The notes under the pieces are model-generated. The model did not search any database, was not told where the DNA came from, and saw only the letters and a list, made by a program, of their open reading frames with translations. Shown one piece after another: positions 32,731 through 44,075 of a DNA stretch of 64,000 bases. The stretch is from positions 744,001 through 808,000 of the forward strand of contig NZ_CP102826.1 of assembly GCF_025643595.1 (NCBI RefSeq), read 5' to 3'. The first letter of the stretch is position 1, and each line of letters opens with the position of its first letter. Position numbers and translations under genes: made by a program. This stretch comes from Saccharopolyspora rosea. GTDB taxonomy: Bacteria > Actinomycetota > Actinomycetes > Mycobacteriales > Pseudonocardiaceae.

Positions 32731-33401
32731 TCAGAGGCAGGCGTGCAGGGCGGTCAGCAGGCGCTGGGCGCGTCCGTCGTGGCCTTCGGCGCGCATCGTG
32801 CACGGGGTGTGGGAGAAGGCGACGCCCAGGCGCGGCCAGCAGCCGTGCACCGAGCCGCCCGCGCCGCTGTGCCCGAAACCGATCCGCCCCGGACCGCAGG
32901 TGCCGAGGTCGTCCTGCAATTCGGAGCCGAGGCCGAAGACCAGCGGACGTCCCGTTCCCGGGTCGGTGCCGCGGCTCTCCTCGCGGTGCACGCGTTCGAG
33001 TAGTCCGGGGCTCGTCGGCACCGGCCGGTGCGGTCGGAGTGCTCCGCGGGCGGCCCCAGCCACCCGTCGGCCGGGATCCGCTCGGTGATCTCGGCGCGCA
33101 CGTAGTCGGTGATGGACCGGCCGTCCACCTGGCGCACCAGCTCGGCGGCCAGCCACCCGGACGTCAGGGCGTGGTAGGCGACGCGGCTGCCGACCGGCCA
33201 CAGTGGAGCCTGCTCGGCGAGCAGCGCGGCCACCGCCGGGTGGTCCGCGGCCATCTCCCGGGACACCGCGCGCTGCGGGTACGGCAGCCCGGCCGCGTGC
33301 GGGAGCAACTGGCGCACCCGGGACAGCCCGATCGCCTCGGCGGACTTGGCGAAGTCGCGCTCGGCCACCGACAGCGTCGCGGCCCGCACCACCCGCATCA
33401 C
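32731..33401 (-). pseudogene. Beta-lactamase/esterase-family serine hydrolase, truncated and frameshifted
   Basis: One frame (from about 33401 to 33010) encodes RQLLPHAAGLPYPQ and SRVAYHALTSGWLAAELVRQV, typical of the class C beta-lactamase-like (EstB/PBP) family. The family's C-terminus, RPLVFGLGSELQDD and GFGHSGAGGSVHGCWP, lies in a different frame (about 33010 to 32731). The N-terminal part with the SxxK nucleophile is missing, and the middle looks shortened. So the gene has lost its 5' end, probably an internal piece and at least one frame. It abuts the promoter of the two-component system, where a rearrangement may have removed the front. Confidence 0.75.
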
Positions 33402-33537
33402 CCGGAGGTGCGGCGCCGCGCGTCCCGCCGACCGAGATCACGGCGGATCGGCGGCGCGACGTGGAACCGGTCACGTCGTCCAATTCGGACGGTCGAGGTG
33501 CGCCGCCGCGCCGTGTCCGGACGGCTCCGCGGCGTAG

Positions 33538-33584
33538 CTGAGATCGCGCTGAGAATGCGCTGTTCAGCTGAGAACCTCCTGAGA
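33538..33584. promoter_or_regulatory. Four CTGAGA repeats: response-regulator boxes before the two-component operon
   Basis: CTGAGA occurs at 33538, 33549, 33568 and 33579. These form two pairs with an 11-bp period, the pairs starting 30 bp apart. Tandem sites one helical turn apart are typical for OmpR/PhoB-family dimers. The same paired word precedes sigE at 63869-63885. Autoregulation is likely. Confidence 0.7.
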
Positions 33585-33625
33585 GGTCGTGGTCGCCGGG
33601 GTCGGGCCCCGGCATCCTGGAGGGC

Positions 33626-34312
33626 ATGGCGCCGCGGGTGTTGGTGGTCGACGACGAGCCGGGAGTCCGGACCGCGCTGCGCCGCGGGCTCACCGCCGAG
33701 GGCATGGAGGTCGCCGTCGCCGGTGACGGAGTGGAGGCGCTCCGGCTGGCGGGCACCGGCGCCTTCGACGTCGTGGTGCTCGACCTGATGCTCCCGGGGC
33801 TGTCCGGGTACCGGGTGCTGGAACGCATGCGCGCCCAGGACGTGACCACGCCGGTCCTGCTGATCTCGGCGAAGAACGGCGAGGTCGACCAGGCCGACGG
33901 CCTCGACCTCGGCGCGGACGGCTACCTCGTCAAACCCTTCTCGTTCCTGGTCCTGGTGGCGCAGGTGCGCGCACTGCTGCGGCGGCGCGACGCGGCGGCT
34001 CGGCAGACCGGCCTGCGCGTCGGCCGGCTGGAGATCGACCGCACCGCCCGCGAGGTCAGCTGGAGCGGCCGACCGGTCGCGCTCTCGCCGCGCGAGTACG
34101 ACCTGCTGGTCGCGCTGGCCGGTCACCCGGAGTCCGTGGTGCCCAAGGACGACCTGCTGCGCATGGTGTGGGGCGAGGAGCAGTTCGTCACCCGCAACGT
34201 CGTCGAGGTCTACATCGGCTACCTGCGGCGCAAGCTCGCCTCGGCCGGTGCCGGGCACCTGGTGCGGACCGTGCGTGGACAGGGCTACCGGGTCAGCGAC
34301 GAGCCCGCATGA
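33626..34312 (+). CDS. OmpR/PhoB-family response regulator
   Basis: A 228-residue regulator. The receiver domain has the acidic pair in VVDDEPG, the phosphoacceptor Asp53 in VVLDLMLPG, the SAK motif and the conserved YLVKPFS. The C-terminal winged helix (about 130-225) ends VEVYIGYLRRKLASAGAGHLVRTVRGQGYRVSD (shown for motif identity in part: VEVYIGYLRRKL, TVRGQGYRV). GGAGG lies just before the ATG. Its stop overlaps the kinase start. The CTGAGA repeats upstream are its probable own sites. Its relation to MprA of mycobacteria is suggested by the boxes, not by close sequence identity. Confidence 0.94.
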   Translation: MAPRVLVVDDEPGVRTALRRGLTAEGMEVAVAGDGVEALRLAGTGAFDVVVLDLMLPGLSGYRVLERMRAQDVTTPVLLISAKNGEVDQADGLDLGADGYLVKPFSFLVLVAQVRALLRRRDAAARQTGLRVGRLEIDRTAREVSWSGRPVALSPREYDLLVALAGHPESVVPKDDLLRMVWGEEQFVTRNVVEVYIGYLRRKLASAGAGHLVRTVRGQGYRVSDEPA

Positions 34313-35655
34313 CCGCCCGCCTGCGCCGGTGGTGGTTCCGCCGCACGATCCAGTTCCGGACCAGCGCGGTCGCCGCGGTCGTCGCCCTGATCGGCCTCGG
34401 CGTCATCGCGCACGCCAGCACCGGGTTCGTCGGCTGGCTGCTCATCCAGTCCGTGGACACCGACCTGGAGCGCACCGCGACCGCCACCGCCCAGCGGCTG
34501 TCCCGCGGATCGGCCCCCTCCGCGCTGGCCGACGCCGACGTCCGCGTGCTCGACCTTTCTGGGCATCCGGTGGACGGATTGCCCGACCCCGGCCTGCGCC
34601 ACGGGCAGCTCGCCGAACTCGTCGCCGGGCAGGGCGTGCTCCGGTTCGACCCGCCCGCGGCGGTCTACCGGTGGCGGGCCGGAGTCGCCCGCGACGCGGC
34701 GGGCCAGCCCCGCGTGGTGCTCGCGGGCGCGCGCCTGGTCGGGTTCGCTGAAACGCTCGGCACGGCCGGTCAGGTGCTCGGCGTCGGTTCGGTGCTGGCC
34801 GCGGGGCTCGTCGGGCTGGCGACCTGGCTCGTCGTTCGCCGGTCCCTGCGCCCGGTCGAGCGGATGCGCCTGGCGGCGGGGGAACTGCCCGAAGGGCAGC
34901 GGCTCCCGGTGCCGGAAGCGAACGACGAGATCCGCGCACTCGCCGAGGAGCTCAACGCCATGCTGGCCCGGCGGGACGCCGACACCGAACGGCTGCGCCG
35001 GTTCACCGGCGACGCCGCGCACGAACTGCGCAACCCGGTGACCGCCATCCGCACGCAGGCCGAAGTGGCGGTCGTGCACCCCGATCCGGCCCTCGCCCAG
35101 GAAACCCTCCAGGACGTCGCCCACGAGGCCCAACGGCTGTCGGACCTGGTGGAAAGCCTGCTCACGCTGGCCCGCGCCGAGCGGGACACGCCGTCCCCGG
35201 CCCGGCCGGTCGACCTGGTGGCCGCGGTCCGCGCCACGGTCGACCGCCTCGAACAGCACGGGGTGCGCCCCGAGGTCGCGATCGATGTGCCCGACGCGCC
35301 GACCGCGGTCCCGGCCGACCCGACCGAGGTGTCCCGGGTGCTGGACAACCTGGTCAGCAACGCCCTGCGCTACGCGAAGGCGCTGGTCCGCGTCTCGGTG
35401 GTGGCGACTCCGGGGATGGTGCGCCTGGTCGTCGACGACGACGGACCGGGCATCCCGGCGGAGCACCGCGAGCGGGTGTTCGACCGGTTCTACCGCGTCG
35501 AGTCGGACCGGGCCCGCACCAGCGGCGGTGCGGGGCTCGGCCTCGCCCTCGTCGCCGAGGCGGTGCGCCGACGGGGAGGAGCGGTCCGCGCCACCGAGTC
35601 TCCGGAGGGCGGCGCCCGCGTGGAAGCCGTCTGGCCCCGGTACGCGCCGTCCTAG
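34309..35655 (+). CDS. Sensor histidine kinase
   Basis: A 448-residue membrane kinase. The first membrane helix is about residues 18-45 (AVAAVVALIGLGVIAHA), followed by an extracytoplasmic sensor of about 100 residues and a second helix (VLGVGSVLAAGLVGLATWLVV). HAMP follows, then the H box DAAHELRNPVTAIR with His238. The ATPase domain has the N box DNLVSNALRYA, G1 DDDGPGIP and G2 GGAGLGLAL. It phosphorylates the response regulator encoded immediately upstream (ATGA overlap). The signal is unknown. The extracytoplasmic location would fit envelope stress, given the shared boxes at sigE. Confidence 0.94.
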   Translation: MTARLRRWWFRRTIQFRTSAVAAVVALIGLGVIAHASTGFVGWLLIQSVDTDLERTATATAQRLSRGSAPSALADADVRVLDLSGHPVDGLPDPGLRHGQLAELVAGQGVLRFDPPAAVYRWRAGVARDAAGQPRVVLAGARLVGFAETLGTAGQVLGVGSVLAAGLVGLATWLVVRRSLRPVERMRLAAGELPEGQRLPVPEANDEIRALAEELNAMLARRDADTERLRRFTGDAAHELRNPVTAIRTQAEVAVVHPDPALAQETLQDVAHEAQRLSDLVESLLTLARAERDTPSPARPVDLVAAVRATVDRLEQHGVRPEVAIDVPDAPTAVPADPTEVSRVLDNLVSNALRYAKALVRVSVVATPGMVRLVVDDDGPGIPAEHRERVFDRFYRVESDRARTSGGAGLGLALVAEAVRRRGGAVRATESPEGGARVEAVWPRYAPS

Positions 35656-35710
35656 TGCGCACCGAGGTCCCGGCGACCGGGCGTGGCGGAGTGCGGCAAG
35701 ATGTGTGCAC

Positions 35711-36559
35711 GTGCCGGTATTGCGGAGTACGGGACTGATCAACGCGCCGCTCACCACAGCGGCGGCGGCGCTGCGGCACACCCGGACCGCGGAGCTGGGC
35801 CTGCGGCACGTCGGCGTCACGGGTCACGCCGCGACGCGGCCCGACGTGCTGCTGACCCCGGGCGACGAGCTCGCGTTCCGGGCCCGGATCGCGCGCCTCC
35901 CGGTGTCGCTGACCACCAGGATCGTCCGCGCGGACGCCGGCGGGCTGAGCTCGGTGCTCGTCGCCGGGCCGCTGCCCGGGCTGCGCCACGAGTCGGTGCT
36001 GGCCGACGCCGGTCCGCGCACGCTGCTGACGGATGCGGTGCACTGGGAGGCGCCGCTGGGTGTCGCGGGGCGGATCGCGAACGTCGTGCTGATCCGCCGA
36101 TTCGTGCTCCGGGTGCTGGCGGCGCGCATCGCCGCGGTTCGACGGCTGGCCGAATGCTGGGAGGGGCGCCAGGTCGTGGTGGGCACCGCTATCGTCCACA
36201 ATGGACGGCTGCTGGCCCAGCAGCGCCGCTACCCCGCGAAGGACGCCGGGCGCTGGGAACTGCCGGGCGGACGGGTCGAACCCGGTGAGACCGAACAGGA
36301 CGCCGTCGCGCGGGAGTGCAAGGAGGAACTCGACGTCGAGGTGCGCCCCACCGGTCGCGTCGGCACCGACGTCCCGCTCGACAACGGGATGTTGCTGCGC
36401 ACCCACACCGCCGAACTGCTCGACGGCGAGGCGGAGCCGAAAGCGGTCGAACACCACGACGTCCGCTGGGTGGCCGCCGACGAACTGTCCGATCTGGACT
36501 GGCTCCCGGCCGACCGGGTGCTCGTCCCGGCGCTGCGCGAACTCCTCAGCGCCCCTTAG
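35711..36559 (+). CDS. SRPBCC (START-like)–Nudix hydrolase fusion
   Basis: About 282 residues. The N-terminal half (1-140) has a polyketide-cyclase/SRPBCC pattern: INAPLTTAAAALRHTRTAEL, then LLTPGDELAFRARI, a VTLLTDAVHWEAPLG-like strand and the long C-terminal helix. The C-terminal half is a Nudix hydrolase with the box GRVEPGETEQDAVARECKEELDV (G-x5-E-x7-REUxEE). It follows VVGTAIVHNGRLLAQQRRYP and probably acts on a nucleoside diphosphate derivative such as an oxidised nucleotide (MutT-like). The GTG start gives VPVLRSTGLINAP. It stands 55 nt after the kinase gene and ends by overlapping the Uma2 stop region on the other strand. Confidence 0.82.
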   Translation: MPVLRSTGLINAPLTTAAAALRHTRTAELGLRHVGVTGHAATRPDVLLTPGDELAFRARIARLPVSLTTRIVRADAGGLSSVLVAGPLPGLRHESVLADAGPRTLLTDAVHWEAPLGVAGRIANVVLIRRFVLRVLAARIAAVRRLAECWEGRQVVVGTAIVHNGRLLAQQRRYPAKDAGRWELPGGRVEPGETEQDAVARECKEELDVEVRPTGRVGTDVPLDNGMLLRTHTAELLDGEAEPKAVEHHDVRWVAADELSDLDWLPADRVLVPALRELLSAP

Positions 36560-37161
36560 GGTTCGAGCAGCTCGGCCGGGTCGAGCGACAGCGGGAACGG
36601 TAGCTCGGTCTCGAAGGTCTGGCCGTTGCGAGCCGTCGCCTGCCGCTTGTACTCGCCGTCTTCGAGCCGGAGCAGTTCGACGTCGACCCGTTGCCCCGTG
36701 TAGGAGACCTCGACGCGCATGAAGTACGGGATCGCCGACTCGGCGCACAGAGCCGACTTGTCGATCTTGTCGCGTCGTTCGCTGGACGGCGAAACGCACT
36801 CCCCCACGAGCAGGGCCTCGTTGGCGGGAATCCACGTGCGGCCTCGGCCCGGTCGCGTCAGCACCGCGAAGTCCGGCTCCATCCAACGCTTGACATCGAG
36901 CTGGAGGCTGACGGTCAGATAGAAGAGGAACCCGCTCTCGGCTGCGGCTCGTTCCAGGCGCTTGCCCAGCGTCCAGACGGCGAACATGTTCGCCGTCCCC
37001 TCACGTGGACTCATGATCAGCTTCCCGTCCAGGCACTCGTACTTGGCCGGGGGCATCCCCGGGATCGGTAGGTACCTGTCGGCGAGCTCCGGGGTCCACA
37101 GGCCGTTCAGCTCCACGAGGGGGTCGAACGAGGAATTCGGCTCGATCGCCGGTGCAGCCAT
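36556..37161 (-). CDS. Uma2-family (DUF820) PD-(D/E)XK nuclease-like protein
   Basis: About 201 residues. Uma2 proteins have a restriction-endonuclease-like fold. Motifs seen are YECLDGKLIMSPREG near the N-terminus, MEPDFAVL (the metal Asp) and LLVGECVSPSSERRDKIDK (the E-x-x-S segment), then IPYFMRVEV. The family is abundant in cyanobacteria and some actinomycetes and its role is unknown. The start has GAGGAG 7 nt upstream. It overlaps the end of the Nudix gene by 4 nt in a convergent arrangement, and stands alone. Confidence 0.88.
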   Translation of the reverse strand: MAAPAIEPNSSFDPLVELNGLWTPELADRYLPIPGMPPAKYECLDGKLIMSPREGTANMFAVWTLGKRLERAAAESGFLFYLTVSLQLDVKRWMEPDFAVLTRPGRGRTWIPANEALLVGECVSPSSERRDKIDKSALCAESAIPYFMRVEVSYTGQRVDVELLRLEDGEYKRQATARNGQTFETELPFPLSLDPAELLEP

Positions 37162-37273
37162 GACGACACTCCTCTCGACCAGGAACCCGGCCGGACCGCG
37201 GTACCCATGAACCCAGGTTGGCGGCACTGATCATGACCTTGCCAGGTAGTCCACTCGAACTGGTGAACGAACG

Positions 37274-37312
37274 GGCGGGCGTTCCGGCAGCGCTCGGGCC
37301 GGGACGCCCGCC
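37274..37312 (-). terminator. Terminator after trpS
   Basis: A 15-bp stem (arms 37274-37288 and 37298-37312, one wobble pair) with a 9-nt loop begins 12 nt past the trpS stop on the minus strand. Confidence 0.6.
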
Positions 37313-37323
37313 GCGTTCGGTCG

Positions 37324-38289
37324 TCAGCGCAGTCCGGCCATGCGCATCGCGGCCTGCAGGCGCGGTTGGGCGCGGTCCGCGGCGTGCTTGGCGCCGTGGG
37401 CCCGGATGCGGTCCAGCTCGGCGGGGTCGTCCAGCAGCTCCCGGGCGCGTTCCCGCACCGGGCCGAGGACCTCCACCACCGCCTCGGCCGCGATCTCCTT
37501 CAGCGCCGCGTACGAGTCGGCCGCCGACGCCGCGGTGTAGGGGCTGGTACCGCGGCACGCGCCGAGGATCTCCAGGAGGTTCGCGACGCCGGGCTGGTTC
37601 TCCGGGTCGTAGCGGACCTCGCCCACGTCGTCGGTCACGGCGCGGCGGAACTTGCGGCGGATGACGTCGGGCTCGTCCAGGACGAACACCACGCCCGCGG
37701 ACTGCTGGGTGGACTTGGCCATCTTGCGCGCGGGGTCGGACAGGTCGCGCACCCGCGCCGCGGTCTTGGGCACGACCGCCTCCGGGACGGCGAAGACCTC
37801 CCCGTAGGTGGCGTTGAACCGCCGGGCGAGCACCCGGGCCAGCTCGACGTGCTGGTCCTGGTCGCTGCCGACGGGCACCTCGGTGGCGCCCTGCAGCAGG
37901 ATGTCGGCGGCCATCAGGACCGGGTACGTGAGCAGGCCCACGCGCACCGAGTCCTGGCCCGCGCCCCGCTCCTTGAACTGGATCATCCGCGCGGCCTCGC
38001 CGTAGGAGCAGGTGCACTCCAGGATCCAGTTCAGCGCCCCCAGCTCGCAGGCCAGGTCGGACTGCACGAACACCGACTCCGGGCCGATGCCCGCGGCCAG
38101 CAGCACCGCGAACTGCTCCCGGGTGAGCGCGCGCAGCCGTCCCGGCTTGTGCGGCGTGCTCATGGCGTGCATGTCGGAGACGAAGAACAGGTCCGCGGGC
38201 TCGCGCTCGGTCGCCCAGCGCCGCACGGCGCCGAGGTAGTTGCCCAGCTGGACGTGGCCGGACGGAGTGATGCCGGACAGTCGGGTCAT
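37324..38289 (-). CDS. trpS: Tryptophanyl-tRNA synthetase, attenuator-controlled
   Basis: A 321-residue class I synthetase that charges tRNA-Trp. The HIGH-equivalent is TPSGHVQLGNYLGA and the KMSKS loop reads KMAKS. Other family segments are FFVSDMHAMSTPHKP, GLLTYPVLMAADILLQ and VPVGSDQDQHVELARVLARRFN. The N-terminus (MTRLSGITPSGHVQLGN) differs from the housekeeping actinobacterial form as I recall it. It resembles the auxiliary, indolmycin-tolerant TrpRS of Streptomyces, which is known to be controlled by ribosome-mediated attenuation. A Trp-Trp leader peptide and competing hairpins lie in the 5' leader here. Whether a second trpS exists elsewhere cannot be seen. Confidence 0.93.
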   Translation of the reverse strand: MTRLSGITPSGHVQLGNYLGAVRRWATEREPADLFFVSDMHAMSTPHKPGRLRALTREQFAVLLAAGIGPESVFVQSDLACELGALNWILECTCSYGEAARMIQFKERGAGQDSVRVGLLTYPVLMAADILLQGATEVPVGSDQDQHVELARVLARRFNATYGEVFAVPEAVVPKTAARVRDLSDPARKMAKSTQQSAGVVFVLDEPDVIRRKFRRAVTDDVGEVRYDPENQPGVANLLEILGACRGTSPYTAASAADSYAALKEIAAEAVVEVLGPVRERARELLDDPAELDRIRAHGAKHAADRAQPRLQAAMRMAGLR

Positions 38290-38374
38290 CGTGGTCGCTC
38301 CCGGTGTCGTCGAGCCGCCCCCAGGATCGACCACGTCGCGCTCGGCCGCCTGGTGGCGGCCGGTTGCTGCGTCG
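38290..38374 (-). promoter_or_regulatory. trpS attenuator hairpins
   Basis: On the minus strand, GGCCGC and GCGGCC around the leader's Trp codons can form an early hairpin. A later hairpin pairs CGGCCGCC with GGCGGCCG around ACCA. The GGCGGCC of the first can instead pair with the GGCCGCC of the second, giving an antiterminator. This is the layout of a transcription attenuator; a U-run after the last stem is lacking. Confidence 0.6.
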
Positions 38375-38428
38375 TCAGTGCGCGCGCTCGCGGGGCCGCC
38401 TCGCAGCGGCCCACCAGTTGTTCGACAT
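38375..38428 (-). CDS. Leader peptide of trpS with tandem Trp codons
   Basis: A 17-codon frame, MSNNWWAAARRPRERAH, whose codons 5 and 6 are adjacent TGG Trp codons. In a random 17-codon frame two adjacent Trp codons are very unlikely. It lies between a promoter (TTGACC and TAACAT) and trpS, and the Trp codons fall on one arm of the first hairpin. Ribosome stalling at these codons when charged tRNA-Trp is scarce would favour the antiterminator and raise trpS transcription. Similar leaders with consecutive Trp codons precede trp genes in other actinobacteria. The start has no clear ribosome site (GTGCACGCG before ATG), which is its main weakness. Confidence 0.7.
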   Translation of the reverse strand: MSNNWWAAARRPRERAH

Positions 38429-38443
38429 CGCGTGCACGCGGCA

Positions 38444-38474
38444 ATGTTACCGCTTGGTGATCGGCAGTGGTCAA
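38444..38474 (-). promoter_or_regulatory. Promoter of the trpS leader
   Basis: On the minus strand, TTGACC (38474-38469) and TAACAT (38449-38444) are 19 nt apart and precede the leader peptide. The region is shared with the divergent YciI gene. Confidence 0.45.
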
Positions 38475-38496
38475 GGCTCGGAGTTACCGTGAAAAT

Positions 38497-38808
38497 ATGT
38501 TTGTGGTGCTGCTGGAATACACTGCCCCGGAATCGGACATCGACGGCCGTCTGGTAGATCACTACGAATGGATCACCCGGCATTACGATGCGGGCGACTT
38601 CATCGCCGCCGGGCATCGGCACCCCCGCAACGGGGCCGTGATCATCGCGCGTGCGATGTCCCGCGGCAGGCTGGACGCGATCTTGGCGACTGATCCGTTC
38701 CTGCTGCACAAGCTGGCCCGTTACGACGTGATCGAGTTCCAGGCCAGGCGCACCATCCCAGAGCTGGCCAAGTACGCCGACCCGCTGACGCCGGTCGCCG
38801 GCCAGTAG
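38497..38808 (+). CDS. YciI-family protein
   Basis: A 103-residue dimeric alpha/beta-barrel protein. Family features are VLLEYTAPESDID at the start, HYEWITRHYDAGDFIAAGHRHPRNGAVI with the conserved His, and a DPFLLHKLARYDVIEFQA end. YciI-like proteins are mostly uncharacterised; some act as small hydrolases or dechlorinase-like enzymes. The gene is divergent from trpS with overlapping promoter regions. The sequence before the ATG (GTGAAAAT) is AT-rich and lacks a good ribosome site. Confidence 0.88.
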   Translation: MFVVLLEYTAPESDIDGRLVDHYEWITRHYDAGDFIAAGHRHPRNGAVIIARAMSRGRLDAILATDPFLLHKLARYDVIEFQARRTIPELAKYADPLTPVAGQ

Positions 38809-38827
38809 CGGCGGAGAAGATCGCGAA

Positions 38828-38845
38828 CCTCGGCGGGCGCCGAGG
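38828..38845. terminator. Small hairpin between YciI and the Cys/Lys-rich gene
   Basis: CCTCGGC / GCCGAGG, 7-bp stem with a GGGC loop, between two converging genes. Confidence 0.4.
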
Positions 38846-38850
38846 TGAGG

Positions 38851-39021
38851 TCAATTCGCGTCCTTTTTCTTTGCCTCTTTCTTGGTCTTCTTTTGCTTTT
38901 TCTTGACCTCCTGCGCCTTGGCCTCCCGCAGGGCTTCGCGCAGGACCACGATCGGGCAGCGCTTGCACGGGGGTCGCGAGAGGCAACATTTCCTTTTGAC
39001 CTTGATTGTGTCTTTGCCCAC
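38851..39021 (-). CDS. 56-residue Cys/Lys-rich protein behind an iron box
   Basis: A small basic protein from a GTG start. It begins MGKDTIKVKRKCCLSRPPCK, continues RCPIVVLREALREAK and ends in a lysine-rich tail (KKKQKKTKKEAKKKDAN). The cluster C-C-x5-C-x2-C fits a metal or Fe-S site. I recall similar small actinobacterial proteins with a CCxSxPxCKRCPVV core, all uncharacterised. The use of AAA/AAG and lower GC reflects the Lys content. An IdeR/DtxR-type box lies 34 bp upstream of the start, suggesting iron control. No operon partner is seen. Confidence 0.75.
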   Translation of the reverse strand: MGKDTIKVKRKCCLSRPPCKRCPIVVLREALREAKAQEVKKKQKKTKKEAKKKDAN

Positions 39022-39054
39022 GGTTCGTCTTTCCGCTGCCGGGGTCGGTCGCGC

Positions 39055-39073
39055 TCAGGGTAGGCGAACCTAA
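39055..39073. promoter_or_regulatory. IdeR/DtxR-like iron box
   Basis: TCAGGGTAGGCGAACCTAA matches the 19-bp consensus TTAGGTTAGGCTAACCTAA at 16 of 19 positions. It lies upstream of the Cys/Lys-rich gene on the minus strand and also within 230 bp upstream of typA. Confidence 0.65.
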
Positions 39074-39296
39074 CCGCAGAAGGCGAACCCGATGTTGGTC
39101 GGCGCCCGGCTCGATGTTGCGCTCAGCACGTGCCGGTGGGCAGCGCCCGCCGTTGCACTACGCTGGACCGAGCCGCGCGTCGACCTTCGCGTGCCCGAGG
39201 CACGCACAGCTCCGCAGCAGCGGCGTCGTGGAGCCGCGGCCACTCGTCGACGAACACCGCCGTGCCCGCTTGTCGCGTAGAGCCAGGAGTACCCGC

Positions 39297-41210
39297 GTGT
39301 CCGCCACCAGTGTCGCCGCCCCCATCCGCAGTGATCTGCGCAACGTCGCCATCGTCGCGCACGTCGACCACGGCAAGACCACGCTGGTGGACGCCATGTT
39401 GCGGCAGTCCGGTGCGTTCTCCGAACGCGCCGAGCTCGTGGACCGCGTGATGGACTCCAACGACCTGGAGCGCGAGAAGGGCATCACGATCCTCGCCAAG
39501 AACACCGCCATCCGGCGCGAGACGCCGGGCGGCCCGGTGACCATCAACGTCGTCGACACCCCCGGGCACGCCGACTTCGGCGGTGAGGTGGAGCGCGCAC
39601 TGTCCATGGTGGACGGTGTGTTGCTGCTGGTCGACGCCAGCGAGGGGCCGCTGCCGCAGACCCGGTTCGTGCTGCGCAAGACGCTGGCCGCCGGACTGCC
39701 GGTGATCCTCGTGGTCAACAAGGTGGACCGGCCCGACGCCCGGTGCGCCGAGGTCGTCGACGAGACCCACGACCTGCTGCTCGACCTGGCCGCCGAGCTC
39801 GACGACGACGGGGTCGACATGGAGGCCATCCTCGACCTGCCGGTCATCTACGCCTCGGCCCGCGCCGGCCGGGCCAGCCTGGCGCGTCCGGTCGACGGCG
39901 AGCTGCCCGCCGACGAGGACCTGTCGTCGCTGTTCGACGTGCTGCTCAAGCACGTGCCCGCCCCGGTCGCCGACGCCGAGGCCCCGCTGCGCGCGCTGGT
40001 CACCAACCTCGACGCCTCGTCGTTCCTGGGCCGCATCGCGCTGTGCCGGATCCACTCGGGAACGCTGCGCAAGGGGCAGACCGTCGGGTGGTGCAAGGCC
40101 GACGGCAGCGTCGAGAAGGTGCGGCTCACCGAGCTGCTGATCACGCAGAACCTCGACCGCGTGCCGTGCGCCGAGGCGTCCGCGGGTGACCTGGTCGCCA
40201 TCGCGGGCATCCCGGACATCACCATCGGCGACACCCTCGCCGACCCGGACGCCCCCGAGCCGCTGCCCCGGATCACCGTCGACGACCCGGCCATCTCGAT
40301 GACCATCGGCGTCAACAACTCGCCGCTGACCGGCCGCAACGGCGGCACCAAGATCACCGCCCGGCTGGTCAAGAACCGGCTGGACGCCGAGCTGATCGGC
40401 AACGTGAGCATGCGGGTGCTGCCGACCGAGAAGCCCGACGCCTGGGAGGTGCAGGGCCGCGGCGAGCTGGCGCTGGCCGTGCTCGTGGAGACCATGCGCC
40501 GCGAGGGCTTCGAGCTCACCGTCGGCAAGCCGCAGGTCGTGACCAGGACCATCGACGGGAAGCTGTGCGAGCCGTTCGAGCGGCTGACCATCGACGCGCC
40601 GGAGGAGCACCTCGGTGCGATCACCCAGCTGCTGGCCGGTCGCAAGGGCCGGATGGAGACCATGGACGGCCACGGCACCGGGCGGATCAAGCTGGAGTAC
40701 GTGATCCCGGCGCGCGGGCTGATCGGGTTCCGCACCGAGTTCCTCACCGAGACCCGGGGCACCGGCATCGCCAACCACGTCTTCGAGGGCTACTTCCCGT
40801 GGGCTGGGGAGCTGCGCACCCGGCACACCGGGTCGCTGGTCGCCGACCGGGCCGGTGCGGCGACCACCTACGCGCTGCTCCAGCTGGCCGACCGCGGCAC
40901 CTTCTTCGTCTCGCCCGGTGACGAGGTCTACGAGGGCATGGTCGTCGGGGAGAACCCGCGCGCCGAGGACCTCGACGTCAACATCAGCAAGGAGAAGAAG
41001 CTGACCAACATGCGCTCGTCCACCGCCGACGAGCTGGAGCGGCTGGCCAAGCCGCGCACGCTCGCCCTGGAGGAGGCGCTGGAGTTCTGCTCCGGCGACG
41101 AGTGCGTCGAGGTCGGCCCGGAGGCGATCCGGGTGCGCAAGATGACGCTGGACGGCACCACCCGCGCCCGCGAGCGGGCCCGTTCGAAGGCCCGCGACAA
41201 CCAGTCCTGA
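39297..41210 (+). CDS. typA: Translational GTPase TypA/BipA
   Basis: A 637-residue ribosome-binding GTPase. G1 is [18 protein letters not shown]2/switch [13 protein letters not shown]3 [17 protein letters not shown] and G4 [11 protein letters not shown]. The EF-G-like domain V and the TypA-specific C-terminus ([25 protein letters not shown], then [13 protein letters not shown]) follow. The GTG start has AGGAG 7 nt upstream; a longer frame is open but not conserved in character. It heads the typA-lpqW-mshB order found in mycobacteria. Confidence 0.96.
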
Positions 41211-41337
41211 CCGGCGTCACCGATACCCCGGTGTCGGAACCTCGCACGGCGGACGCAACCATGGATGGCTCCCGCGCGTCCAGCGGTCGTACGCCCGTGC
41301 GCGGGTCCGGATCATCGACTCCGAGGGGAGGTTGGGC

Positions 41338-43083
41338 GTGTTCCAGGGTCGGCGCCGCCCGTTCGCCGCGGCCTCCCTGCTGGTGACAACCCTGAGCGTG
41401 GTGGCGGCGTGCACCAACGCGCCACCGCCGCCGCTGGTCCCGCCGCAGGAGAGCCCGACCACGACCACCAGCGCCCCGCCCACCCAGCCGATGCCGACCG
41501 AGGTCGTCGTGGGCGTGGACAAGCTGGAGGGCGGGTTCAACCCGCACACCCTGGCGGACCTGTCCCCGACCAGCTCGACGCTGGCCAGCCTGATGCTGCC
41601 CTCGGTGTTCCGGCCCGGTCCGGACGGCAGCCCGCAGCTGGACACCACGTTGATGGAGTCCGCCGAGGTGGTCCCGGACGCGCCGAAGTTCACCGTGCGG
41701 TACCGGATCCGGCGGGAGGCCAGCTGGTCGGACGGTGCGCCGATCGCCGCCGAGGACTTCGTCTACCTGTGGGAGCAGCTGCGCTCGCAGCCCGGGGTGG
41801 CCGATCCGGCGGGTTACCGGTTGATCGACGACGTGGCCTCCCGGTCGGGCGGCAAGACCGTCGAGGTGACCTTCTCGCAGCCGTTCCCCGGCTGGCGGAG
41901 CCTGTTCAACAACCTGCTGCCCGCGCACCTGCTGCGCGACGCGCCGCGCGGCTGGGCGAACGCGCTCGACGACGGCTACCCGGCCTCCGGGGGACCGTTC
42001 GCGATCCGGCAGGTCGACCTCGCGCGCGGCGAGATCACCCTGGAGCGCAACGAGCGCTACTGGGGACCCCCGGCGGTCTCCGACCGGATCGTGCTGCGCG
42101 CCCTGGACCCGACGCGGCAGGTCGAGGCGCTGCGCAGCGGGGACAGCCACCTCGCGGTCTTCAGCCCGGACAGCGACACGCTCAAGGCGCTGCACGACCT
42201 GGGCGACCAGGTGCAGCTGATCAACGTGCCGCGCCCGGCGACCATGCAGGTCCTGCTGCGGCCGGACAGCCGCGCGCTGTCCGACGCGCGGGTGCGGGGC
42301 GCCGTCACCGCGGCGCTGGACCGCGGCGCGCTGGTCGACGCGGGCACCGGCGGCGGGCCGGGCGAGCAGCTCCCGGCCCACGCCCAGGTGCTCGCCCCGT
42401 CCGAGCCCGGCTACAAGCCGACCGAGCCGCCGGGGCAGCTGGCCGAGCACCCCGACCCGGCGAAGGTCGAGCAGCTGCTCACCGAGGCCGGTTACCAGCG
42501 CTCCGGCGGGACGTGGCTGCGCGACGGCCGCCCGCTGAACCTGGTCATCGCCGCGCCGTTCGAGCACCAGTCCTACGTCCGGATCGCGGAGACCGCGGCC
42601 AAGCAGCTGCGCGACCAGGGCATCCAGGCCACGGTCGTCACCCCGACCGGGCACCAGCTGTTCGGCGAGATGCTGCCGGTGGCGCCCAAGGCGACCGGCG
42701 GGGCCAGCTCGGTGGACATGGCGATCGCGCCGCGCCCGGCCGGGGACGACCCTGCGGCGATGCTGGCGTCGCAGTACGGCTGCGCGGGCACCGCCAAGGA
42801 CAGCGAGCAGCCGTTCCCGCCGAACGACTCCGGGTTCTGCGATCCGCTGCTGCAACCGACGATCGACGCCGCGCTGACCGGGCGGCTGCCGTTCCCGGAC
42901 GCCTCGACCAAGATCGAGTCGACGTTGTGGAACCAGGCCATCGCGGTTCCGCTCTACCAGCAGTCCCAGGTCATGGCGGTGCGGCGGGGCGTCGGGGGGA
43001 TCCAGGTGGGCAACGGTCTGGCCGGGCCGTTCTCGACCGCCGCCCAATGGGTCGGCACCCCGGCCGACAACGACGGCTACTGA
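41338..43083 (+). CDS. lpqW: LpqW-like lipoprotein, SBP family 5 fold
   Basis: A 581-residue lipoprotein. The lipobox is LSVVAAC and a Pro/Thr-rich linker follows. The family 5 extracellular solute-binding fold (oligopeptide-binding type) is shown by GGFNPHTLADLSPTSSTLASL, YRIRREASWSDGAPIAAEDFVYLWEQL in part, FVRDGEITLERNERYWG-like segments and a late IESTLWNQAIAVPLYQQ. Its place between typA and mshB is that of LpqW in M. tuberculosis, which controls PIM/LAM branching rather than transport. No ABC permease genes are adjacent, consistent with that. The GTG has GGGGAGG 7 nt upstream; an earlier TTG abuts that site. Confidence 0.85.
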   Translation: MFQGRRRPFAAASLLVTTLSVVAACTNAPPPPLVPPQESPTTTTSAPPTQPMPTEVVVGVDKLEGGFNPHTLADLSPTSSTLASLMLPSVFRPGPDGSPQLDTTLMESAEVVPDAPKFTVRYRIRREASWSDGAPIAAEDFVYLWEQLRSQPGVADPAGYRLIDDVASRSGGKTVEVTFSQPFPGWRSLFNNLLPAHLLRDAPRGWANALDDGYPASGGPFAIRQVDLARGEITLERNERYWGPPAVSDRIVLRALDPTRQVEALRSGDSHLAVFSPDSDTLKALHDLGDQVQLINVPRPATMQVLLRPDSRALSDARVRGAVTAALDRGALVDAGTGGGPGEQLPAHAQVLAPSEPGYKPTEPPGQLAEHPDPAKVEQLLTEAGYQRSGGTWLRDGRPLNLVIAAPFEHQSYVRIAETAAKQLRDQGIQATVVTPTGHQLFGEMLPVAPKATGGASSVDMAIAPRPAGDDPAAMLASQYGCAGTAKDSEQPFPPNDSGFCDPLLQPTIDAALTGRLPFPDASTKIESTLWNQAIAVPLYQQSQVMAVRRGVGGIQVGNGLAGPFSTAAQWVGTPADNDGY

Positions 43084-43163
43084 TCGGCGGCGTCGCGCTG
43101 GGGCGTTCGGCGCAACCGGCCACCGTCCGCTTGTCGCCCGGCCGGGGAGATTAGGCTGGACCG

Positions 43164-44075
43164 GTGACGCTGACGGCTCCACCGCGGTTGTTGCTGGTAC
43201 ACGCACACCCCGACGACGAGACCCTCTGGACCGGCGGCACGATCGCCCGCTACGCCGCCCGCGGCGTGCAGGTGGTCGTGGTCACCTGCACCCTCGGCGA
43301 GGAGGGCGAGGTCATCCCGGAGAGCCTGCGCGGTCTGGCCGCCGACCAGGCCGACCAGCTCGGCGGCTACCGGGTCGGCGAGCTGCGCTCGGCGTGCGCC
43401 GCGCTCCGGGTCGCCGACCACCGCTTCCTCGGCGGCGTCGGGCGCTGGCGCGACTCCGGGATGTTGTGGGAGGAGCCCGGCCGGGCCGGCGCGGTGCCGG
43501 ACGCGCACCCGCGCGCGTTCGCGGTCGGCGACCTGCAGGCCCAGACCGAGGCGTTGGAATCGGTGTTGCGCGAGGTGAAGCCGCAGGTGGTGGTCAGCTA
43601 CGCGGCCGACGGGGGCTACGGGCACCCGGACCACGTGCGCGCCCACGAGGTGACGGTGGCCGCCGCGGCGAACGTGGCCGACGTGCACCGCGTGTTCTAC
43701 GCGGTTCCCTCGCGCAGCGCGATCAGCGCCGGGCTGGAGGCGTTGGCGCAGGCGCCGGACCTGCCGTTCGAACTCCCCAGCCAGCACGAGCTGCCCGGGG
43801 TGGACGACGCGGAGATCACCACCGCCGTGGACGTCTCCGAGCACCTGCCCGCCAAGATCAGCGCGTTGCGGGCGCACGGCACCCAGGTGCGGGTGTGGCT
43901 GGACCACTGGGACAACGGCGCCGGGGTCGCCGCGTTCGCGCTGTCCAACGGGGTCGCGCAACCGGTCGTCGCGGCCGAGCACTACGTGCTCGCCAGCGGC
44001 GAACCCGAGGGGTGCGAGACCGACCTGTTCGGCGGGCTGGGCGTGATCGGAACCGAACCTGCGGGGAACCGTTGA
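43164..44075 (+). CDS. mshB: Mycothiol biosynthesis deacetylase MshB
   Basis: A 303-residue zinc deacetylase that removes acetyl from GlcNAc-Ins in mycothiol synthesis. The LmbE/PIG-L motif AHPDDETLW is at the N-terminus, with YAADGGYGHPDHVRAHEV carrying the third zinc ligand. The family's TCTLGEEGEV and residues near YAVPSRSAI also appear. The GTG start follows TAGGCT by 6 nt. Its presence shows that the organism makes mycothiol, the actinobacterial thiol. Confidence 0.95.
   Translation: MTLTAPPRLLLVHAHPDDETLWTGGTIARYAARGVQVVVVTCTLGEEGEVIPESLRGLAADQADQLGGYRVGELRSACAALRVADHRFLGGVGRWRDSGMLWEEPGRAGAVPDAHPRAFAVGDLQAQTEALESVLREVKPQVVVSYAADGGYGHPDHVRAHEVTVAAAANVADVHRVFYAVPSRSAISAGLEALAQAPDLPFELPSQHELPGVDDAEITTAVDVSEHLPAKISALRAHGTQVRVWLDHWDNGAGVAAFALSNGVAQPVVAAEHYVLASGEPEGCETDLFGGLGVIGTEPAGNR

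Follow-up and report, generated by a model that had tools for sequence, protein, structure and literature searches.

What governs expression of the auxiliary trpS gene of Saccharopolyspora rosea? The genome carries three trpS genes in total, and the copy at 37324-38289 of the window (the whole 64,000-nt stretch of DNA analyzed here, to which unlabeled coordinates refer) is the auxiliary one. A short reading frame with two adjacent Trp codons lies ahead of it, followed by segments that can pair in alternative ways. A leader with two Trp codons and four competing strands very probably forms a ribosome-mediated attenuator, which on folding models and comparison would permit trpS expression during a shortage of charged tRNA-Trp. 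The hairpin that would switch the gene off is followed by no U-tract, and the form that the output of such a switch might take is the second part of the question.

Promoter, leader and start codon

The genes and signals concerned are these:

37324..38289, minus strand: auxiliary trpS (tryptophan--tRNA ligase, 321 aa), ATG at 38289 (TIGR00233, 249.3 bits, cut-off 176.75)
38375..38437, minus strand: leader ORF VHAMSNNWWAAARRPRERAH, GTG start at 38437, 20 codons, probably leaderless
38411..38416, minus strand: adjacent Trp codons TGG TGG (TGGTGG in orthologue leaders)
38444..38449, minus strand: putative -10 box TAACAT, 6 nt before the leader GTG (TANNNT conservation)
38469..38474, minus strand: putative -35 box TTGACC, 19 nt spacer (by sequence; fits S. 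lividans nTGACn)
38497..38808, plus strand: divergent YCII-domain gene, its start abutting the trpS promoter region (PF03795, 34.5 bits, cut-off 24)

Of the 390 family genomes, 225 have a TrpS orthologue (E<=1e-100), spread over 26 of 46 genera, and the presence of this trpS is therefore not peculiar to S. rosea; within its own genus, 14 of 22 genomes have such an orthologue. Upstream DNA was read for 114 of 226 TrpS matches, covering all 26 genera, and 112 upstreams were parsed. Left out before all counts of 112 were L160 (leader W-Q) and L195 (match starting at residue 32; this locus, though dropped, has a WW leader), while L156, mislocated by the script, was kept and enters the start-motif and 1:2 counts as one miss. 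Two observations concern the sample itself. L183 and L196 (contigs C7 and C22 of genome G246, genus g26) have equal scores and the same leader, and represent either a duplicate contig or a real duplication. L013, titled Rhodococcus rhodnii NRRL B-16535, has leader DNA near-identical to that of Kibdelosporangium aridum (L012), and its TrpS scores like one from Kibdelosporangium; the name given to the strain or record is probably mistaken.

The leader opens GTG CAC GCG ATG TCG AAC AAC TGG TGG and ends with a stop codon at 38377-38375. A first-pass annotation of this DNA had described a 17-codon leader starting at the ATG; the reading frame stands, and the start moves upstream. In 108 of 112 leaders (all but L101, L103, L105 and L156) a TANNNT motif is found 5-8 nt upstream of an in-frame ATG or GTG, compared with 5% in shuffles, and in 101 of those 108 the distance is 6 or 7 nt. 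By this spacing rule GTG 38437 is the leader start in the window, giving 20 codons, and the inner ATG is not conserved (TTG in L009, ACG in L015). The leader mRNA is probably leaderless, with its 5′ end at or beside GTG 38437. A promoter had been named in the same annotation; the putative one, TTGACC-19 nt-TAACAT, is weak by E. coli rules and was absent from a consensus scan restricted to 16-18 nt spacers, but it fits the nTGACn / TAnnnT motifs given for S. lividans promoters in the accessible part of a published study (PMC8079986).

The Trp-codon site was present in all 112 parsed leaders, as TGGTGG in 104 and TGGCGG in 8 according to the script; the true site of L156 is TGGTGG, which brings that form to 105 overall. 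Given the TGGCGG leaders, a single Trp codon seems sufficient in some genera. Beyond the Trp codons and a few neighbors the leader peptide is highly variable between genera, while the RNA helices are kept.

YCII-like genes (MFVVLLQYTAPES / MYIVMLAYKAP) lie beside trpS in three (L004, L010 and L012) of seven named loci examined, which were Saccharopolyspora and Kibdelosporangium-type. On the other side a Uma2-family gene (PF05685) follows trpS immediately downstream, at 36556-37227 on the minus strand. The first-pass annotation had suggested that the organism makes or meets a TrpRS inhibitor, an idea that the present results do not support. No signs of a biosynthetic cluster were seen in 33000-43500, where Pfam was applied to two proteins.

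Competing helices and their modeled states

The pairing segments, in order of transcription, are as follows:

38429..38437, minus strand: P0 5′ arm, start codon region GTGCACGCG, pairing with the leader tail
38406..38412, minus strand: strand 1 GGGCCGC, overlapping the second Trp codon (1:2 hairpin conservation)
38393..38400, minus strand: strand 2 GGCGGCCC, pairing with strand 1 or 3 (2:3 pairing in alignments)
38378..38386, minus strand: P0 3′ arm, leader tail, pairing with the leader 5′ end
38355..38362, minus strand: strand 3 CGGCCGCC (3:4 hairpin, covariation)
38343..38350, minus strand: strand 4 GGCGGCCG, no U-tract following (3:4 hairpin, covariation)

GC helix 1:2 joins 38412-38406 with 38399-38393, GC helix 3:4 joins 38362-38355 with 38350-38343, and strand 2 is also complementary to strand 3. 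These mutually exclusive pairings (1:2, 2:3 and 3:4) are placed so that a Trp stall would free strand 2. The region 38250-38474 folds with a z of -2.91, and 1 of 200 shuffles was as low. Sequence, fold and covariation thus agree with the earlier claim of adjacent TGG codons and two mutually exclusive GC hairpins before a minus-strand trpS, and the anatomy of a trp-operon-type attenuator, also proposed then, recurs throughout 26 genera and at the 28 best-scoring auxiliary loci examined outside the family. Rfam covariance models gave no match at gathering threshold in the window and none at E<=1 for 38200-38520, and identity with a T-box or an Rfam trp leader was set aside on that ground.

Among the parsed upstreams the 3:4 hairpin occurred in 112 of 112, across all 26 genera, the 1:2 hairpin (at least 5 pairs) in 108 (misses L156, L162, L163 and L164) and the 2:3 complement (at least 6) in 110, L087 and L104 having 5. 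Two alignments were used. A1 holds the 23 sequences of the window's U-less clade (genera g1, g36, g37 and g10; tree support 100/99), and A2 holds 54 relatives outside it, 56 having been picked from 89 (similarity below 0.88, at most 6 per genus) and L156 and L172 removed. For the whole structure in A1, 95.2% of cells were paired and the covariation score was reached by 0 of 500 shuffles; the covariation score of 3:4 in A2 was likewise reached by 0 of 500. Strands 2 and 3 were paired in 99.5% of cells in A2 and 99.4% in A1, with a covariation score reached by 500 of 500 shuffles; both 2:3 and 1:2 are near-invariant, so that covariation cannot test either.

The P0 helix, between the leader's start codon region and its tail, reached -14.7 kcal/mol in the window, with 0 of 100 shuffles as low. 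Its median over 108 sequences was -12.2 kcal/mol, compared with -6.4 for shuffled tails; 71% of sequences were at p<=0.05 and 25 of 26 genera lay below their shuffles. It also reached p<=0.05 in 26 of 28 top-scoring other-family loci, which have different leader sequences. The P0 covariation score in the 54 relatives was reached by 0 of 500 shuffles, the number of pairs changed on both sides was 2 (reached by 214 of 500 shuffles), and P0 slid by -2 columns scored nearly equally because the arms are GC-repetitive. On the modeled fold, P0 would close the leaderless start once the tail has emerged.

In folding models of the RNA before strand 4 exists, strand 3 was paired upstream with a median of 0.81 when the ribosome was stalled and 0.04 when it stood at the stop codon; the corresponding values for the window were 0.88 and 0.0001, and 78 of 112 sequences passed both limits (>0.5 stalled, <0.2 at stop). 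Strand 3 also pairs upstream at this stage when no ribosome is present (median 0.68, window 0.67), and the ribosome-free state is therefore not cleanly off. At equilibrium 3:4 won in every modeled state in 23 of 26 genera, the exceptions being g9, g25 and g39. Since 3:4 wins at equilibrium even when the ribosome is stalled, the switch must rely on co-transcriptional kinetics. Classical attenuators are likewise kinetic.

A course of events can be proposed from these models. Transcription would begin at or beside the GTG, and the leader would be translated as a leaderless mRNA. When Trp-tRNA is short, the ribosome would stall at TGG-TGG, sitting on strand 1; during the stall 2:3 would form ahead of the emergence of strand 4, and RNA polymerase would proceed into trpS. 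When Trp-tRNA is ample, the ribosome would reach the stop codon and block 2:3, 3:4 would form, and expression would be cut. An RNA with no ribosome may be clamped off by P0 together with 1:2. The output of this attenuator would be transcription termination; since 3:4 has no U-tract, the off step would require a U-less or factor-aided terminator.

The missing U-tract and the P5 hairpin

Downstream of 3:4 the window reads AGCGCGAC, with 0 U in 8. Counts of 3 or more U among the 8 nt that follow strand 4 occur in 0 of 23 sequences of the window's clade vs 69 of 89 others; of these 89, 7 have 0 or 1 U. A terminator scan found none; in the window 3:4 is present without the U-tract that completes an intrinsic terminator, and the idea of an ordinary intrinsic terminator is not supported. 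Because the U-tract is absent, the element was filed as a U-less variant working like an attenuator and not as a canonical member of the class; the attenuator kind of which it is a variant is that known from Streptomyces. For mycobacteria, U-less termination of an "I-shaped" kind is described in the accessible part of a review (PMC12288462).

A further hairpin, P5, lies between strand 4 and the trpS start codon:

38321..38335, minus strand: P5 5′ arm (anti-Shine-Dalgarno), from the predicted fold
38315..38319, minus strand: "strand 5" GGCGG in the P5 loop (GGYGG conservation)
38290..38304, minus strand: P5 3′ arm, holding the Shine-Dalgarno GGGAG (Shine-Dalgarno accessibility vs shuffles)

In the window P5 is a long interrupted hairpin, and its Shine-Dalgarno is unpaired at 0.20 compared with 0.34 in shuffles, a difference that alone is not significant (p 0.17). 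Across the sample, 92 of 112 sequences had Shine-Dalgarno bases less accessible than those of their shuffles, and the genus medians showed the same in 23 of 26 cases (all but g17, g25 and g40; Wilcoxon 8e-6, the genera not being independent). Among 27 control genes with script-chosen starts, 17 lay below their shuffles (medians 0.34 vs 0.44), and the mean difference was -0.02 (Wilcoxon p 0.32) vs -0.14 for the trpS leaders; trpS genus medians compared with controls gave p 8e-4. On these predicted folds, P5 probably holds basal trpS translation low by covering the Shine-Dalgarno. The spacing from strand 4 to the start codon has a median of 51 nt (middle half 48-53), and some 31 nt upstream of the trpS start a GGYGG occurs in 85% of sequences (genus-weighted), compared with 32% of dinucleotide shuffles; g9, g24 and 4 of 6 g36 sequences lack it. 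In the 54 relatives outside the window's clade, 93.4% of cells have strand 5 complementary to strand 3. Three candidate relationships were tried and set aside. Pairing of strand 3 with strand 5 could not be told from covariation, the score being reached by 40 of 500 shuffles and the strands being too conserved. A state-dependent P5 found no support, as Shine-Dalgarno accessibility was about equal across modeled states, and neither did the idea that a weaker U-tract is offset by a stronger P5 (Spearman 0.32, p 0.12).

Is transcription the step that is switched? The main rival keeps the Trp sensing and supposes that the full transcript is always made, with P5 gating the trpS Shine-Dalgarno in the U-less clade. 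Such translational control is unlikely, although several features speak for it: the U-tract is missing in every one of the 23 clade members, the Shine-Dalgarno is more paired than in shuffles in nearly all genus medians, unlike in the control genes, the GGCGG near the P5 loop complements strand 3 in the relatives outside the clade, and the spacing between strand 4 and the start is near-constant. Nevertheless, modeled Shine-Dalgarno accessibility is about the same with and without the stall, a near-constancy that counts against the attenuator switch as well. P5 is also found in genera with a U-tract and is not stronger in the U-less clade (median Shine-Dalgarno unpaired 0.50 in g1), its strength is not significantly correlated with U content, and strand 5 is lacking in most sequences of the clade member g36. 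Moreover, U-less termination, disputed as it is, has been reported in mycobacteria (PMC12288462, accessible part). A rather speculative extension, which we consider improbable, joins the two outputs in one history: a single ancient Trp sensor RNA would have persisted ahead of auxiliary trpS in several actinobacterial families, P0 would admit only the pioneer ribosome, and the Saccharopolyspora clade, having lost the U-tract, would now switch trpS through P5 and the GGCGG strand, its output shifting from transcription to translation. On U-less termination itself, a paper in that review's reference list is titled to the contrary, and for actinobacteria the matter is disputed.

Loss of the U-tract could also mean that the attenuator has decayed, the leader and hairpins persisting while trpS has become constitutive in Saccharopolyspora. 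The 8 of 22 same-genus genomes with no TrpS match at E<=1e-100 are in keeping with decay, yet it is very unlikely, for strands 1-4, the Trp codons and P0 are all retained in the U-less clade, which decay is not expected to do, and the A1 pairing and covariation results, together with the near-complete 2:3 pairing there, show the same retention. An action of the leader peptide in trans and not only in cis, like that of Sinorhizobium peTrpL, has in its favor the conservation of a small ORF and a precedent for trans action of a trp leader peptide (PMC7298713, accessible part). With a peptide that varies so widely between genera while the helices are kept, we give this idea hardly any credence. 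A ribosome-mediated attenuator, probably acting on transcription, is the reading that we retain.

Relation to known attenuators and to other TrpRS copies

In the E. coli trp attenuator the same 1:2 / 2:3 / 3:4 logic operates and the leader initiation region pairs with a distal segment, but the leader has a Shine-Dalgarno sequence and the terminator has a U-run; the window probably has a leaderless leader mRNA, and its 3:4 hairpin is U-less. Closer parallels come from auxiliary trpS genes. All of the 28 top-scoring auxiliary trpS loci taken from three other families have the same design, and 24 of these loci are Streptomyces-type; the group concerned (f21/g71) was taken as Streptomyces because its leaders match trpL2 MMTRTCTQLWRAA, for example VMTRTCTQLWWAA in L203. 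The closest known system is the attenuator of the Streptomyces auxiliary TrpRS (TrpRS1), and these 24 loci share with the window the leaderless-type Trp leader, P0, 1:2 and 3:4. In contrast, their leader peptide differs outside the Trp codons, their TrpRS is 52-57% identical to that of the window, and they have 2-6 U in the 8 nt after strand 4, whereas the window has none. A 2010 paper by Vecchione and Sello is said, by its title, to describe ribosome-mediated transcriptional attenuation of an auxiliary TrpRS gene. In S. lividans, trpL2 precedes trpS and is leaderless by RNA-seq, and in the accessible part of that study the authors report two hairpins and no uridine-enriched sequence (PMC8079986). 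For S. avermitilis, a 2005 paper predicted a candidate attenuator ahead of trpS2; from what is accessible of the same paper, the trp operon attenuators of Corynebacterium and Streptomyces likewise have repeated UGG codons and complementary triples gGCC-rGCy-GGCC, but they precede biosynthetic operons and all their terminators have poly-U tracts (PMC1262725). Among the titles and abstract starts listed, a set that leaves most subscription journals uncovered, no trpS attenuator in this family (Pseudonocardiaceae) was found.

A design of attenuation that had been reported for a resistance gene of Streptomyces is thereby extended to another family, in 26 of its genera. The present results add two conserved parts that are unnamed in the literature compared, P0 as a putative clamp at a leaderless-type start and P5 over the Shine-Dalgarno, and the orthologues form a natural series with and without a U-tract in which attenuator termination in GC-rich actinobacteria could be tested. 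A spare TrpRS under the predicted Trp-starvation control would serve as a ready-made sensor of TrpRS inhibitors.

The search for a second, housekeeping trpS proposed in the first-pass annotation was successful. A housekeeping-type copy lies at C1:5835379-5836326 (49% identity to the window TrpS over the matched part), in addition to a third TrpRS at C1:911658-912647 (35% identity), and no ORF with WW or WxW was found in the 400 nt upstream of either. In a TrpRS tree of 51 rows the C1:5835379-5836326 copy grouped (99/98) with copies from other genomes that we labeled housekeeping, and the window TrpS fell within a family-wide auxiliary clade (100/100), its closest named orthologues being from Saccharopolyspora (81-84% identity). 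Judged by the tree, the window TrpS is distinct from the housekeeping-type TrpRS of the same genome. As to the hypothetical indolmycin resistance of the enzyme, raised in the first-pass annotation, the Gln of the SGIQPT motif in housekeeping-type copies is Thr in the window TrpS and mostly Lys in Streptomyces-type copies. A second auxiliary clade (99/97) united Streptomyces-type copies with those from f19 and f29, two further families. The best tree joined the two auxiliary clades with support of 58/4, too weak to establish a common origin.

The third TrpRS formed a very long branch in this tree. It is of PRK12556 type (G000:C1:911658-912647 = L245:14653-15735; NF009207, 556 bits, cut-off 479), with a third-position GC of 0.76 vs 0.86-0.97 for the called genes around the window trpS. 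It adjoins a glycosyltransferase-4 gene and a short gene resembling trpD (TIGR01245, 76.9 bits, under the cut-off of 199). The trpD-like gene ends at a transposase-like gene, which by eye looks IS630-like, and a gene for a serine recombinase lies farther along. From its third-position GC and its neighbors, this copy looks horizontally acquired.
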